37,548 nt of DNA from the IMG/VR virus record IMGVR_UViG_3300034012_000959, positions 1-37,548 of that record; one strand, given 5' to 3'. The position numbers and the translations under genes are program-made. The notes beneath the pieces are model-generated. The model worked only from the letters and a program-made list of their open reading frames with translations, was not told the DNA's origin and made no database searches. Of this stretch, positions 8,596-22,942 are shown piece after piece. This stretch comes from a virus. Positions within the stretch are counted from its first letter, which is position 1. Every line of letters starts with the position of its first letter.

Positions 8596-9102
8596 ATGAG
8601 AATAATAAAAAAAAAGAAAAGACGTGCAGATGCCATATACTATGGCAGAGATACTAAGTATGATTTTCTTAAAAATTGGGGCGTAATTAGAAAATGGGCC
8701 ATATATCAGTACGGGCTTAAGTCATCGGCAGACATAGATATGCTCATGTTTTTGTACTCAGAAAAATTATTTACACGATCAAAGTTTAACGAGTATGCAT
8801 CGTTTATGTCGTGGGATAGAAACAGATTTGACAGACTACTTAGCGATGGATTTATCTCAATATGGAGAAAAAGAAAGTACGGAGAGTACAATCTTTACGA
8901 GCTATCGTTTCAGGCTAAAAAAATGATTGCTAGTATGTATAGAAAGCTAATTGGGCTAGAACCCTTCCCAGAGACACCAAGACGAAACAAGGTCATGAAA
9001 CCAAGCGCATCTTACTCGGAAAGAATGCTAGCCCACGCTATAAGAAGGTTTAACTCTGAGTTTAAAGAACGCAAACAATATCCTTCTCTTGAACAACAGT
9101 AA
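8596..9102 (+). CDS. Probable winged-helix DNA-binding protein, 168 aa
   Basis: A family recognisable from Bacteroidota phages: basic start MRIIKKKKRRADAIYYGRDT, then a helical region with SSADIDMLMFLYSEKLFTRSKFNEYASFMSWDRNRFDRLLSDGF and a wing-like beta pair GFISIWRKRKYGEYNLYELS, followed by helices and a basic tail. The order helix-turn-helix plus beta wing is that of winged-helix (MarR/RepL-type) regulators. It is the only plus-strand gene in the left 13 kb and its end overlaps the end of groES by 41 bp (convergent). Its targets are unknown. Confidence 0.75.
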   Translation: MRIIKKKKRRADAIYYGRDTKYDFLKNWGVIRKWAIYQYGLKSSADIDMLMFLYSEKLFTRSKFNEYASFMSWDRNRFDRLLSDGFISIWRKRKYGEYNLYELSFQAKKMIASMYRKLIGLEPFPETPRRNKVMKPSASYSERMLAHAIRRFNSEFKERKQYPSLEQQ

Positions 9103-9319
9103 ACCTGCTGTTGTCGATTACTACCTCGTAGGAGTGAACCTTGTCGTACATAACCTTGTCTCCTTTTGACATTCCAGTTACGTTAATTCCTGGCTCGACT
9201 ATTACACCGTAGTGATAACGCATGTCTTGGTATTCCTCACCGCTGAGTATTAGTCCGCTCTTGGATGTTTTTTGTTCTACAACCTTCTCGATTAGTATAA
9301 ATTTATTTAGGACTCTCAT
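9062..9319 (-). CDS. groES: Co-chaperonin GroES (single domain), 85 aa
   Basis: Ten-kilodalton co-chaperonin that caps the GroEL ring during protein folding. Visible: FILIEKVVEQKTSKSGLILS (strand plus mobile loop with the hydrophobic LIL tripeptide that docks on GroEL), GVIVEPG, MSKGDKVMYDK and FTVVQEKDIVCVL, the ordinary GroES blocks at a slightly short length (85 against about 95). Lies after groEL on the message and overlaps it by 17 bp, the reverse of the usual bacterial groES-groEL order. Its 3' end overlaps the plus-strand regulator by 41 bp. Confidence 0.92.
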   Translation of the reverse strand: MRVLNKFILIEKVVEQKTSKSGLILSGEEYQDMRYHYGVIVEPGINVTGMSKGDKVMYDKVHSYEVVIDNSRFTVVQEKDIVCVL

Positions 9320-10868
9320 CTGCTCTAATGTTTGTTATAATTGCATTTGTACTCATTATTGTGGTGGCAACAGACACGGCGTTTAAAAGAGCGTTCTTCG
9401 TTACCTTGGTCGGGTCAATAATACCCATCTTCATCATGTCTCCAAACTTCTCAGCCTTTACATCGTATCCATGACCTTTTTCAAATATACCCATCTCTAT
9501 CTCGTGCGGATTCTTTCCAGCGTTAACTAGTATCTGACGAAATGGTGCAACTAGTGCTTCTGACATTATCTGTGAAGCTACATCATCGTCTGAAAAAGCA
9601 TATTCAGATGCACATTCTAGAAGCGCTATCCCTCCTCCTGGAAGTATGCCCTCCTCAAGTGCGGCCATAACAGCGTAAACCGCATCATCAATCCTGTCCC
9701 TTTTCTCCTTCTGCTCAATGTCGCTCTGTGCGCCAACATATATTACACCAATGCCTCCAGATATATTAGCAATACGCTCCCTAATAAACTCCCTATCAAC
9801 ATGATCGTCTGTCTGGTCCATCATTGACTTAAGCTCTTCTAAATGATTATCTATGTCCTGCTTAAAATCAGCGTGATGCATAAATACCGTCATGTCTTTT
9901 TTTACAATGACCTTTGAGGCTTTTCCAAGGTCGCTTAGTGTTGCAATAGACAAATCATCACCAGTATCATCGCTGAAGTACGTGCCTCCAAGAGCAACAG
10001 CTAAATCTTTTAAAAGGTCTTTCTGTCTGTAACCAAACGATGGAGGAATAATATTGCAAGCCTTAATCTTTCCTTGGTAAACGTTAACGTTCAACGTCTG
10101 AAGAGCGTTAGGTCCCAAAGTACCAATGATTAATAACGACTTGCCTTGTGAAACAATAGGAGCCAATATTTTCTCTAGATTAGATATATTATTTATCTCG
10201 TGGTCACAAATCAAAACGTATGGATTCTCAAGAACACACTCCTGCTTCTTTTGATCATTAACAAAATATTGAGAAGTGTATCCCCTCTCAATTCTCATAC
10301 CGTTAATAATCTCTACACGAGTCTCAGAGTTCATACTGTTCTCTACGGTTACAAGAGATACCTCTGAAAATGCGTCACCAATCATCTTACCAAGATCATT
10401 GTCGTTGTTTGCCGATATAGCCGCAACATCGTACAGCCTTTTTCCGTTAACCTTTTTAGACATCTTGTCAAGCTTAGAAATAACTCTCTTTGTGATGTCA
10501 TTTATTCCCCTTATAACCTCAGTAACGTTGTCATTTTCTTTTAAATACTTGTCAGAAGCGTCAATAATAGCTTCTGCCAACACAATGGACGTTGTTGTTC
10601 CGTCACCTGCAATGGTAGCAGTCTTGTCCGCAGCCTGCCTCATCATCATTACAGCTAGATTTTCAGTTGGGTCGTACAGATTGATTGACTTTGCTACAGT
10701 TACACCGTCCTTTGTAACTGTTATTCCTCCAACATGGTGCTCGGACTCAATTAAAACTGTCCTTCCTCTCGCTCCAAGTGTACTTTTTACGGCTCCAGCT
10801 ATCTTTTTGATGCCAGATTTCAATTTTTTTTGGCCTTCATCACCAAAATGAATCTCTTTTACTATCAT
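9303..10868 (-). CDS. groEL: Phage-encoded chaperonin GroEL, 521 aa
   Basis: ATP-driven chaperonin ring subunit. Nearly full length (E. coli about 548). Key parts: VTKDGVTVAK (residues 51-60, D54 for E. coli D52), ATP loop AGDGTTT (87-93, D89 for D87), an apical domain with RGYTSQYFVND (195-204) in place of RGYLSPYF, and RIDDAVYAV...LPGGGIALLE (393-418) with D395 matching E. coli D398, needed for hydrolysis. The GGM-repeat tail is absent; the end is IRADESPK. Both catalytic aspartates are kept, so it should be active. Likely folds phage capsid or fibre proteins, alone with the phage GroES or with the host machinery. Confidence 0.95.
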   Translation of the reverse strand: MIVKEIHFGDEGQKKLKSGIKKIAGAVKSTLGARGRTVLIESEHHVGGITVTKDGVTVAKSINLYDPTENLAVMMMRQAADKTATIAGDGTTTSIVLAEAIIDASDKYLKENDNVTEVIRGINDITKRVISKLDKMSKKVNGKRLYDVAAISANNDNDLGKMIGDAFSEVSLVTVENSMNSETRVEIINGMRIERGYTSQYFVNDQKKQECVLENPYVLICDHEINNISNLEKILAPIVSQGKSLLIIGTLGPNALQTLNVNVYQGKIKACNIIPPSFGYRQKDLLKDLAVALGGTYFSDDTGDDLSIATLSDLGKASKVIVKKDMTVFMHHADFKQDIDNHLEELKSMMDQTDDHVDREFIRERIANISGGIGVIYVGAQSDIEQKEKRDRIDDAVYAVMAALEEGILPGGGIALLECASEYAFSDDDVASQIMSEALVAPFRQILVNAGKNPHEIEMGIFEKGHGYDVKAEKFGDMMKMGIIDPTKVTKNALLNAVSVATTIMSTNAIITNIRADESPK

Positions 10869-20864: not shown

Positions 20865-21080
20865 ATGAAACAAACAGCAGTAGAGTGGTTACAAAAACAA
20901 TTAGAGTGTTTTGGAAATAAACATGAACTACAAATGTCTTGGGCTACAGTAGATGAGTTACTTGAACAAGCCAAAGCAATGGAGAAAGAGCAAATTGTAA
21001 ATGCTTATAACGATTGTGAATGGACTGGGGACCATGAAGATGGAGAACAATACTACAACGAAACCTTTAAATCAGAATAG
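20865..21080 (+). CDS. Tandem paralogue 1, 71 aa
   Basis: MKQTAVEWLQKQLECFGNKH ... LLEQAKAMEKEQIVNAYNDCEW...EQYYNETFKSE. The pattern TAVEWL..QL....(E)QAK.MEKEQI..AY..G........EQYYNETF is a common small family of Bacteroidota phages of unknown function. Shares its last 37 bp (up to the stop) exactly with paralogue 2. Confidence 0.85.
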   Translation: MKQTAVEWLQKQLECFGNKHELQMSWATVDELLEQAKAMEKEQIVNAYNDCEWTGDHEDGEQYYNETFKSE

Positions 21081-21301
21081 AATGAAAACAAAAAAACAAC
21101 TTACAGCAGTAGAGTGGTTGGTTGAACAATTACCATTAATTCAACAAGAAGGATTAAGATATGTTATTGAACAAGCCAAACAGATGGAGAAAGAGCAGAT
21201 AATTGATGCCTATTATCAAGGAGATGCAGATTCGGATAACATACACGTAGATGCAGAACAATACTACAACGAAACCTTTAAATCAGAATAGAATGAAAAC
21301 A
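21044..21301. repeat. 47-bp perfect direct repeat bounding a 211-bp duplication
   Basis: The 47 bases at 21044-21090 recur exactly at 21255-21301. They cover the end of one paralogue (EQYYNETFKSE), the stop, and the start of the next (MKT). Unit-to-unit distance is 211 bp, equal to one gene: the family spread by tandem duplication through these ends. Other parts of the genes differ, so the ends are either recently converted or under selection. Confidence 0.9.
21082..21291 (+). CDS. Tandem paralogue 2, 69 aa
   Basis: MKTKKQLTAVEWLVEQLPLIQQEGLRYVIEQAKQMEKEQIIDAYYQGDADS...AEQYYNETFKSE. Same family as the gene before it. I place the start at ATG 21082, two bases after the upstream stop, not at the earlier ATG of the longer open frame (21001), since it matches paralogue 1. 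Function unknown. Confidence 0.85.
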   Translation: MKTKKQLTAVEWLVEQLPLIQQEGLRYVIEQAKQMEKEQIIDAYYQGDADSDNIHVDAEQYYNETFKSE

Positions 21302-21847
21302 GCAGTAGAATATTATAATCAAGAAATAAAAGAGTTGTTTAATATGCATCAAGATGGAGAAATAAGTGGTAAAATGTTTCATATGTCAAGACTTGTTGCT
21401 TTAACTAAAGCCAAAGCAATGGAGAAGGAGCAGATAATGAAGGCTTTTTATAAAGGTAGGCAAGAAGAACAATATAAAAACTTATTTAATAACCACGTTA
21501 GAAAATCAGAAGAACAATACTACACAGAAACCTATGAAAGCAACGAAGCAACAGAAAACTTGAATATATCTGATGTTAGTGATAGTGTTTATTTTATTAG
21601 AGTTTCTGTCAAAATAGACAAGTCTCTCTATAATAGAACTGCTGATATTAAAGATATAGTAAGAACTGAATTAATGTCTGCTGAAATTAAAGGTGTTTTA
21701 TGGAATTATAAAATAGAACAAATTGATTCTGGTGATGGTAAAGACTGGGAGTTTTTAGTAAATTTTTTCACGAAAATGAATAAAACACAAATTCAAAACT
21801 ATTTTGACAGAAACACATTAGGAAGTGAAAACTATCAAGTTTTATAA
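21293..21847 (+). CDS. Chimeric protein: paralogue 3 fused to an integron-cassette product, 184 aa
   Basis: Residues 1-94 are paralogue 3 (MKTAVEYYNQEIKELF...AKAMEKEQIMKAFYKGR...EEQYYTETYES...NLNISD). From V95 the frame enters integron cassette 0 at base 21576 and continues with an unrelated, lower-complexity-free domain (about 97-184: DSVYFIRVSVKIDKSLYN, TELMSAEIKGVLWNYKIEQI, WEFLVNFFTK) ending VL before the attC site. The cassette reading frame has no own ATG near its left edge, so expression depends on the phage start. Removing 21576-22893 would give a 104-residue protein ending DVNRRFNGVNY. Function of the foreign domain unknown. Confidence 0.8.
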   Translation: MKTAVEYYNQEIKELFNMHQDGEISGKMFHMSRLVALTKAKAMEKEQIMKAFYKGRQEEQYKNLFNNHVRKSEEQYYTETYESNEATENLNISDVSDSVYFIRVSVKIDKSLYNRTADIKDIVRTELMSAEIKGVLWNYKIEQIDSGDGKDWEFLVNFFTKMNKTQIQNYFDRNTLGSENYQVL

Positions 21848-21853
21848 CATTAT

Positions 21854-21947
21854 CACTAACGTTTTGCGGCTTTGCGATGGCCGCCAATGAAGAATTTAAT
21901 TATTAACCGAGATGTGTCAGGCGGCTATTGCAAAACCGCTGTTAGCC
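21854..21947 (+). mobile_element. attC site 1 (end of cassette 0)
   Basis: R'' CACTAAC (21854-21860), L'' GCGGCTTTGC and GGCCGCC, a spacer of about 37 bases, then GGCGGC, TTGCAAAACCGC (L') and R' GTTAGCC (21941-21947). The arms pair imperfectly, with extra bases on one side, the asymmetric form of attC sites. 94 bp. Crossover between G21941 and T21942. Confidence 0.82.
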
Positions 21948-21976
21948 GCTGGCCTTTCTCATAACACAAATAAAAA

Positions 21977-22288
21977 ATGAGTACAAGAGCAAACATTAAA
22001 TTTCAAGACGGGGATGAGTACATTCACATTGACAGAAGCCACGATGGATTTCCTGATGTAATTCTTCCAGATATTAAAGCAGCCATTGACCTTTGCAAAG
22101 GACGTTGGAGTGGTTCAGAATTAGGGCAGTTGGTTTCAGCTTTCTTAGGACTACATTTTGACAAAAACAAACGTATTCAGAATTACGAGCCTTGCATTGG
22201 TTTTGATAAAGCTGGTGATGAAAGTTATGAATATTATGTTCGTTGGAATAGTCAGAAACGTGAATATGAATACGGGGTGCTGTCATAG
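21977..22288 (+). CDS. Cassette 1 protein, MSTRANI family, 103 aa
   Basis: MSTRANIKFQDGDEYIHIDR SHDGFPDVILPDIKAAIDLCKGRW..., ending YEYYVRWNSQKREYEYGVLS. The start MSTR(A/C)NI.F.(D/N)G......(Y/D)R..DG(Y/F)P..(V)LPD is a known family of unknown function, common in bacteria, phages and gene cassettes. Single gene in its cassette, same direction as the neighbours, its stop 4 bp before the attC arm. Possible roles in stress or phage defence are not testable here. Confidence 0.85.
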   Translation: MSTRANIKFQDGDEYIHIDRSHDGFPDVILPDIKAAIDLCKGRWSGSELGQLVSAFLGLHFDKNKRIQNYEPCIGFDKAGDESYEYYVRWNSQKREYEYGVLS

Positions 22289-22294
22289 GCTTGC

Positions 22295-22390
22295 GGCTAA
22301 CGTTTCGGGGCTTTGCGTAGTAGCCCTTAATATAAACTTAAAATTAACCACGACACTTGATAGGGCTATTACGCAAAACCCTTGTTATGT
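22295..22390 (+). mobile_element. attC site 2 (end of cassette 1)
   Basis: R'' GGCTAAC (22295-22301; GCGGCTAAC from 22293), GGGCTTTGCGTAGTAGCCC (22308-22326), spacer of about 36 bases, GGGCTATTACGCAAAACCC (22363-22381) and R' GTTATGT (22384-22390). The two inner arms pair for 16 of 19 bases. 96 bp. Confidence 0.85.
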
Positions 22391-22410
22391 GCCGTTAAAT
22401 TATCAAACAA

Positions 22411-22629
22411 ATGGGATGTGAAATTTGCGGACGTGGAGCTTGTACAAGGAGCTTTCACTCATTAGAAGAACAAGAAGAATTTGACCGAGTAAATAAAACG
22501 GACGAAATAAAAGAACGTCTGAAAAATATTATTGAAAGGCAAGTAAACAGATTAAAAGGTGATTACATAGAAAATGATTACTATGTGAAATTGTCAGACG
22601 TTATTGATGTAGTTCAGTCGTCTGATTAA
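22411..22629 (+). CDS. Cassette 2 protein, zinc-finger-like N-terminus, 72 aa
   Basis: MGCEICGRGACTRSFHSLEE QEEFDRVNKTDEIKERLKNI...: CEICGRGACTRSFHS gives C3, C6, C11 and H16, a small zinc-binding start (family phrase C.ICGR..C.RSFHS.EEQ), followed by helices. Its function is unknown to me. Only gene of its cassette, flanked by attC sites 2 and 3. Confidence 0.8.
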   Translation: MGCEICGRGACTRSFHSLEEQEEFDRVNKTDEIKERLKNIIERQVNRLKGDYIENDYYVKLSDVIDVVQSSD

Positions 22630-22633
22630 TGGA

Positions 22634-22767
22634 ACATAACGTTTTCGGGCTTTGCGTTCGTTGGCATTTAGAATTACTGAACTTTAAAATAAGCACAAAT
22701 GAAAATTAGAAAACAAAAACTTGAAATTAAGCAATTAACCGCCAATGACGCAAAGCCTGTGTTAGCA
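22634..22767 (+). mobile_element. attC site 3 (end of cassette 2), long type
   Basis: R'' ACATAAC (22634-22640), CGGGCTTTGCGTTCGTTGGC (22646-22665), a long spacer of 75 bases, GCCAATGACGCAAAGCCTG (22741-22759) and R' GTTAGCA (22761-22767). The inner arms pair through GGCTTTGCGT and TTGGC. 134 bp; the spacer contains the start of a small open frame. Confidence 0.8.
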
Positions 22768-22854
22768 GTAGTGTTAAAGTGTAGTCATTTTTGGAAGATG
22801 GTAGCTAAAAATTATTACAAATGTAGTTGGTGTGATAAGAGGCATTACTGCTAA
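22699..22854 (+). CDS. Cys/His-rich small ORF spanning attC 3 and cassette 3, 51 aa
   Basis: MKIRKQKLEIKQLTANDAKP VLAVVLKCSHFWKMVAKNYYKCSWCDKRHYC: starts in the spacer of attC 3, reads through its right arm and ends in the R'' of attC 4. The C28-x-H30 ... C42-x-x-C45 ... H49-x-C51 pattern looks like a compact zinc knuckle. A GTG at 22771 could be the cassette's own start (27 residues). Being produced by the junction of two cassettes, it may be accidental. Confidence 0.4.
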   Translation: MKIRKQKLEIKQLTANDAKPVLAVVLKCSHFWKMVAKNYYKCSWCDKRHYC

Positions 22855-22899
22855 CACAAAAGCAGGTGCAGTTTCAATTGCACTTGCTAACTGTTAACC
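22849..22899 (+). mobile_element. attC site 4 (end of cassette 3), short type
   Basis: R'' TGCTAAC (22849-22855; TACTGCTAAC from 22846), inner arm AGCAGGTGCA (22861-22870), 8-base loop, TGCACTTGCT (22879-22888) and R' GTTAACC (22893-22899). 51 bp, with 9 of 10 inner pairs, close in size to the classical short attC. Different sequence from sites 1-3. Right end of the array at G22893. Confidence 0.7.
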
Positions 22900-22942
22900 G
22901 CCGTTTTAATGGCGTAAATTATTAAAATTAAATAAAAATAAT

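Follow-up and report, generated by a model that had tools for sequence, protein, structure and literature searches.

Reverse-oriented gene cassettes in an integrase-less phage array, with recombinases at the ends of related viral arrays

INTRODUCTION

How does a phage genome that encodes no integrase come to hold a row of integron-type gene cassettes? The DNA that we analyzed (the window), which is 37,548 bases long and listed as a virus in IMG/VR, carries primase, helicase, exonuclease, and lysis genes plus one tRNA. A preliminary description, made from the sequence, had recognized four back-to-back cassettes in it and had concluded that a host integron integrase must have added them. The window has at least two attC sites close together and no integrase gene nearby, which is the definition of a CALIN. 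Phage attC arrays as such are already published and are not new: the accessible portions of Qi et al. (2023; PMC9892861) describe integrase-less attC arrays in phages, including virulent phages and Polaribacter phage P12002L, a phage of Bacteroidota. The window resembles these CALINs in having attC-flanked genes without an integrase gene in a phage genome. At issue here are which unit is exchanged, in which direction it lies, and which recombinase moves it.

RESULTS

An integron-type array in the window. We trained a covariance model on 24 attC-like sites, all from Bacteroidota chromosomes. In the consensus, R'' pairs with R'; next come an unpaired spacer, four pairs, a C/A mismatch, and finally a long stem, which is the shape of an attC, and 17 of the 24 consensus pairs in the chromosomal alignment show compensatory changes on both sides. 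When the window was searched, three sites (attC1 to attC3; Table 1) matched on the plus strand with E values of ≤4e-13; on the minus strand the same sites scored ≤21 bits. Neither the sister phages without the array (L002 and L003) nor plasmid R388 nor Polaribacter phage P12002L yielded a match to the model. A generic scan of the 37.5-kb window found stems at the same three sites (scores 18.8, 19.4, and 18.7) and no other stem scoring above 12. Single-strand folds of attC1 and attC2 reproduced the R''/R' pairing, the unpaired spacer, the C/A mismatch, and the long stem; fold z values on the plus strand were −2.9, −4.0, and −1.3 for attC1, attC2, and attC3, respectively. All three are imperfect palindromes (R''-L''-L'-R') conserved in structure and not in sequence. 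Four full attC units had been proposed. The first three hold, and the fourth (attC4), recognized by hand and by stem scan only, is a short hairpin of a different kind, with no match to the covariance model.

The ends of the units bear out the integron-type array. Each gene body in the window has GTT at its start and AAC at its end, and R'' is complementary to a TTRRRY at the far end of its own gene body. Pairing between start and end is 10, 9, 7, and 10 nt within units and 4 to 6 nt between different units. Among 302 gene bodies from related arrays, 75% had end pairing of at least 7 nt, a value that fell to 4.7% after end swapping. The absence of an integrase was also upheld, none being seen among the open reading frames (ORFs) of the window or in a 62-kb sister contig.

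The leftmost unit, gene 1, lacks a left-hand attC and forms an in-frame fusion with a phage ORF (21287-21847); no relatives of this remnant were found in viral contigs. For the 103-aa gene of cassette A we found one relative in a genome, in the phage-like contig L081, which has lysis-, exonuclease-, and terminase-like genes and a reversed cassette array. Phage GenBank records gave only tRNA matches in a DNA search and no match to the cassette protein.

Table 1. Features of the array and its surroundings in the window
Feature	Position	Strand	Basis or remark
Hypervariable small-gene region	20865..22927	+	Exchanged for other content in close relatives
Remnant cassette body (gene 1), own attC missing	21575..21847	+	ORF and end pairing
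attC1	21857..21944	+	Best fold on plus strand; stem scan; 63.4 bits
Cassette A (attC1, leader, and 103-aa gene)	21860..22300	+	Block in L270, L291, and L336, 86-93% DNA identity
Cassette A gene, 103 aa (MSTRANIKFQDGDEYIHIDRSHDG...)	21977..22288	+	No family
attC2	22298..22387	+	Stem scan; fold; 66.1 bits
Cassette B (attC2 and 72-aa gene)	22301..22639	+	Stem scan; covariance match
Cassette B gene, 72 aa	22411..22629	+	ORF list
attC3	22637..22764	+	Stem scan; fold; 81.2 bits
Cassette C (attC3 and possible 27-aa Cys-rich gene)	22640..22854	+	Sequence; IR 10 nt
Possible cassette C gene	22771..22854		GTG start
attC4, short attC-like hairpin, resident terminal site	22852..22896	+	Site and right flank beside different genes, many phages
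CCGCCGTTTTAATGGCG hairpin, fixed to terminal attC in phages	22898..22914	+	Phage comparison

Surroundings of the array. In near-identical sister phages the array is absent or other genes stand at its position. The hypervariable region is replaced by 203 bp in L002 and L003 and by 1.6 kb of different genes in L001, with flanks about 98 to 99% identical. The empty site that had been predicted, with base 21575 joined to base 22894, was not found in relatives; close relatives swap the whole interval from 20.89 to 22.93 kb.

Small paralogous genes also vary here, at 20865-21539 in the window, at L001 5640-7290 and L002 7060-7310, and in L004, L005, and L011. They share segments at their 5' ends (MKQTAVEWL), in the middle (MEKEQI), and at their 3' ends (EQYYNETFKSE), and the short repeats in this run of genes suggest module swapping without the involvement of attC. 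Elsewhere, at 9062-10868 on the minus strand, the window encodes a GroEL chaperonin (521 aa; 498 bits to NF009487), and an adjoining 85-aa ORF looks GroES-like without matching a family. An Rfam search of the window gave nothing beyond the tRNA.

The exchanged unit is an attC plus the gene downstream of it. Each unit had been described as a G^TT boundary, a gene, and an attC at its right, but the exchanges move these boundaries by one attC. A BLAST search with 21841-22420 returned the block 21856-22300, attC1 and its downstream gene, from three other viral records (Table 1); in one of these, L336, an attC with the same ends as attC1 lies upstream of the same gene. Among nine nonredundant pairs, the left attC (in attC polarity) was retained and the right one had changed, and the reverse case did not occur. 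One 177-aa gene had the same left attC in three phage contexts and four different right attC sites. Because the left attC stays with the gene while the right one changes, and because the 21856-22300 block is conserved, the cassette is an attC followed by a gene. Thus, the attC lies upstream of the gene with which it travels, with exchange at TAA^C; in attC1 the crossover would fall between 21859 and 21860. The core of attC2 is joined to other genes in L245, L270, L283, and L293.

In many phages attC4 and its right flank stand beside different genes, and the variable part stops exactly at YAA|C. An alternative in which an incoming gene brings the terminal attC along on its downstream side was rejected, since every occurrence of attC4 included the right flank.

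The segment from attC1 through its leader (CCGCTGGCCTTTCTCACAACACAAATAAAA) up to the start codon (21857-21980) precedes more than 10 different genes (contexts include L248, L267, L271, L274, L281, L306, and L328), as if new cassettes were formed by joining genes to a standard attC-leader module. Some of these units may therefore arise by homologous recombination in the leader and not by an integrase. In addition, short attC-like hairpins, some with the loop GTTTTAAT, recur in otherwise different phages (L001 6068-6135; also L085, L087, L102, L104, and L111); a second hairpin, CCGC(C/A)GTTTTAATGGCG, whose loop is identical, comes next.

Cassette genes are oppositely oriented in phages and in Bacteroidota chromosomes. 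Because the arms of an attC are asymmetric, every site has a direction. We scored orientation with a weight matrix for which only chromosomal sites served as training data, taking the longest ATG ORF of each body. The order was gene-then-attC in 64 of 69 chromosomal Bacteroidota cassettes (64:5) and attC-then-gene in 166 of 175 viral cassettes (166:9). Fisher's test on these counts gave P ∼1e-42, although loci within a class share ancestry and are not fully independent. Counted by array, the ratio of gene-then-attC to attC-then-gene was 23:0 for chromosomes and 4:74 for viruses (P = 5e-19). Here, "viral" means IMG/VR status plus a few hallmark genes; portal, primase, and helicase genes adjoin several of the arrays, in support of a viral origin. 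The reversed genes line up with phage transcription, whereas in a chromosomal array the same cassette would face away from the chromosomal reading direction. We infer that the opposite orientation separates two cassette pools.

Recombinases linked to related arrays. The attC pattern was present in 50 of 395 Bacteroidota genomes, and a true IntI was found in 2 of 14 array genomes tested. About 17 genomes had a tyrosine recombinase, mostly of 280 to 400 aa, on the same contig as the array and within about 22 kb of it; in nearly all cases its 3' end pointed toward the array. An initial reading, that the chromosomal cassette genes are read toward the recombinase, was discarded when an ORF survey showed the opposite. 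The array-linked recombinases resemble XerA and IntI, but an alignment shows that they lack the IntI-specific additional domain, an insert of about 43 residues, and they score below the TIGR02249 cutoff; their best family match is the XerA/XerD type (NF040815). No Xer protein is known to serve a gene-cassette array.

Attachment-site-like sequences accompany these genes. About 100 nt past the stop codon of the chromosomal recombinases lies a shared attI-like site, TAACTngTTTATA (in array polarity), at which the cassettes begin. Two genomes whose recombinases are 95% identical share their sequence up to about this site and diverge beyond it. A TAnnTTTG box, a possible element of a Pc promoter for the cassettes, lay no more than 130 nt past the stop codon of the recombinase at 9 of 28 loci, with 0.09 expected in each.

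Seven viral records with reversed arrays have recombinases of their own at the array (attI) end, a separate group of short proteins. Their genes are on the cassette gene strand, always in the same orientation, 250 to 1,056 nt beyond the last attC, and a matching attI-like motif, TAACtAgTATATATa, lies shortly upstream of the start codon. L336, which also carries the attC1 type together with a gene closely related to the 103-aa one, is among the seven. In a recombinase tree the phage group received moderate support (84/78), the main chromosomal group 100/99, and IntI 100/100, with the phage group apart from both others; the "P" label of L194 was ignored because it rests on one weak site. The recombinase-linked arrays have recombinase, putative attI (as recognized from sequence), and cassettes in fixed geometry, as in a complete integron. 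The window itself has no attI motif at its array end, and no recombinase was found in the 62-kb sister contig or in most of the array-bearing phages tested; a search of the phages for IntI found none.

Two array-linked recombinases (L182 8772-10520 and L194 1276-2676) have an extra repeated N-terminal domain with a W..S/D....K.W..P motif, which neither IntI nor the phage recombinases possess. In a 169-kb viral record (L335 423-9644), an array with many genes that by eye look like DNA methyltransferase genes, and with one that looks like a PAPS-reductase gene, is directly followed by a recombinase. Two Bacteroidota genomes (L202 3019-4229 and L180 8511-9720) share, at 99.7% identity, a cassette with a dihydropteroate synthase gene that resembles Sul3 (353 bits, under the Sul3 cutoff); it may offer a clue to where sulfonamide-resistance genes came from.

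DISCUSSION

We conclude, with a probability of about three in four, that the window's array, which lacks an integrase, is made up of phage-type cassettes in reverse orientation and that a recombinase moves them in trans. The mobile unit would be an attC and a gene read away from it, so that genes run along phage transcription. The enzyme, a tyrosine recombinase provided in trans, would act on the folded plus strand of attC, with exchange at the TAA^C end, and new units would join the left edge of the resident terminal attC4. Candidates for this enzyme are a relative of the array-end recombinases of other phages and a host chromosomal recombinase. We infer that the array-linked recombinases act on these attC sites. 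That a host integron integrase must have added the cassettes does not follow, since phage cassettes are reversed relative to chromosomal ones and seven viral records have an array-end recombinase of their own. These observations suggest that phages run a gene-exchange system themselves.

Could the reversed units be moved by a host chromosomal recombinase only, their orientation reflecting selection for cotranscription and the phage recombinases being incidental? The lack of a visible recombinase in most phage arrays, the window's included, would fit, as would the attC and attI motifs common to both recombinase types. We regard this as the less likely reading, because the seven array-end phage recombinases have a fixed position and orientation and form their own group. 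We think it improbable that the hairpins serve as regulators or terminators between genes and that homologous recombination within a hypervariable region exchanges the genes. Shared leaders, short repeats, and the occurrence of attC1 and its leader before many different genes are what such swapping would produce; however, the structure is kept by compensatory change rather than by sequence, the exchange points lie exactly at TAA^C, the R''/R' pairing is gene specific, and recombinases and attI-like sites adjoin arrays. Also improbable, and rejected on the exchange evidence, is that a secondary site in the phage took up ordinary gene-then-attC cassettes with G^TT boundaries from an integron of a Bacteroidota host. 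The symmetric end pairing would suit this equally well, and it finds support in PMC9892861 (phage attC arrays are known, and 5 of 6 phage attC sites recombined with IntI1), but the right-hand attC never travels with the gene while the left-hand one always does, host arrays are oppositely oriented, and the one genome relative found for cassette A sits in a phage-like contig.

A reverse-oriented array moved in trans can be set against known systems. Chromosomal IntI integrons (G035, G025, and the class 1 integron of R388) share with the systems described here the attC architecture, an integrase-adjacent attI, and cassette arrays; they differ in the IntI insert, and the orientation of gene versus attC is reversed in the phages. 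In the "reverse orientation" integrons of Spirochaetes, as described in the accessible portions of PMC9668308, it is the integrase that is reversed, whereas in phages it is the gene relative to attC. The Bacteroidota chromosomal arrays resemble that Spirochaete type, as far as those portions describe it, in that recombinase and cassette genes have the same direction and the array lies at the 3' end of the recombinase. The accessible portions of PMC9892861 do not mention systematic reversal, a phage recombinase at the array end, or exchange at the upstream end of the gene. In the open-access literature (preprints and most subscription journals lay outside the search), neither reversed cassettes in phages nor phage recombinases at array ends nor a chromosomal type lacking the IntI insert turned up.

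The broader proposal is that Bacteroidota phages have an integron lineage, with reversed cassettes, a phage attI, and a phage recombinase without the IntI domain, which parallels an equally undescribed chromosomal type and is separated from it by orientation; we put the odds of this at about even. Phage attC sites have hitherto been viewed as exchanged with bacterial integrons. If the proposal is true, there is a separate phage cassette pool, and phages would be active users of integrons; this would also explain the fast turnover of small phage genes, some of which are DNA methyltransferases. It would further suggest that many Bacteroidota arrays regarded as integrase-less are served by an integrase that escapes IntI models, and it offers a concrete test of how orientation restricts the passage of cassettes between phages and their hosts.
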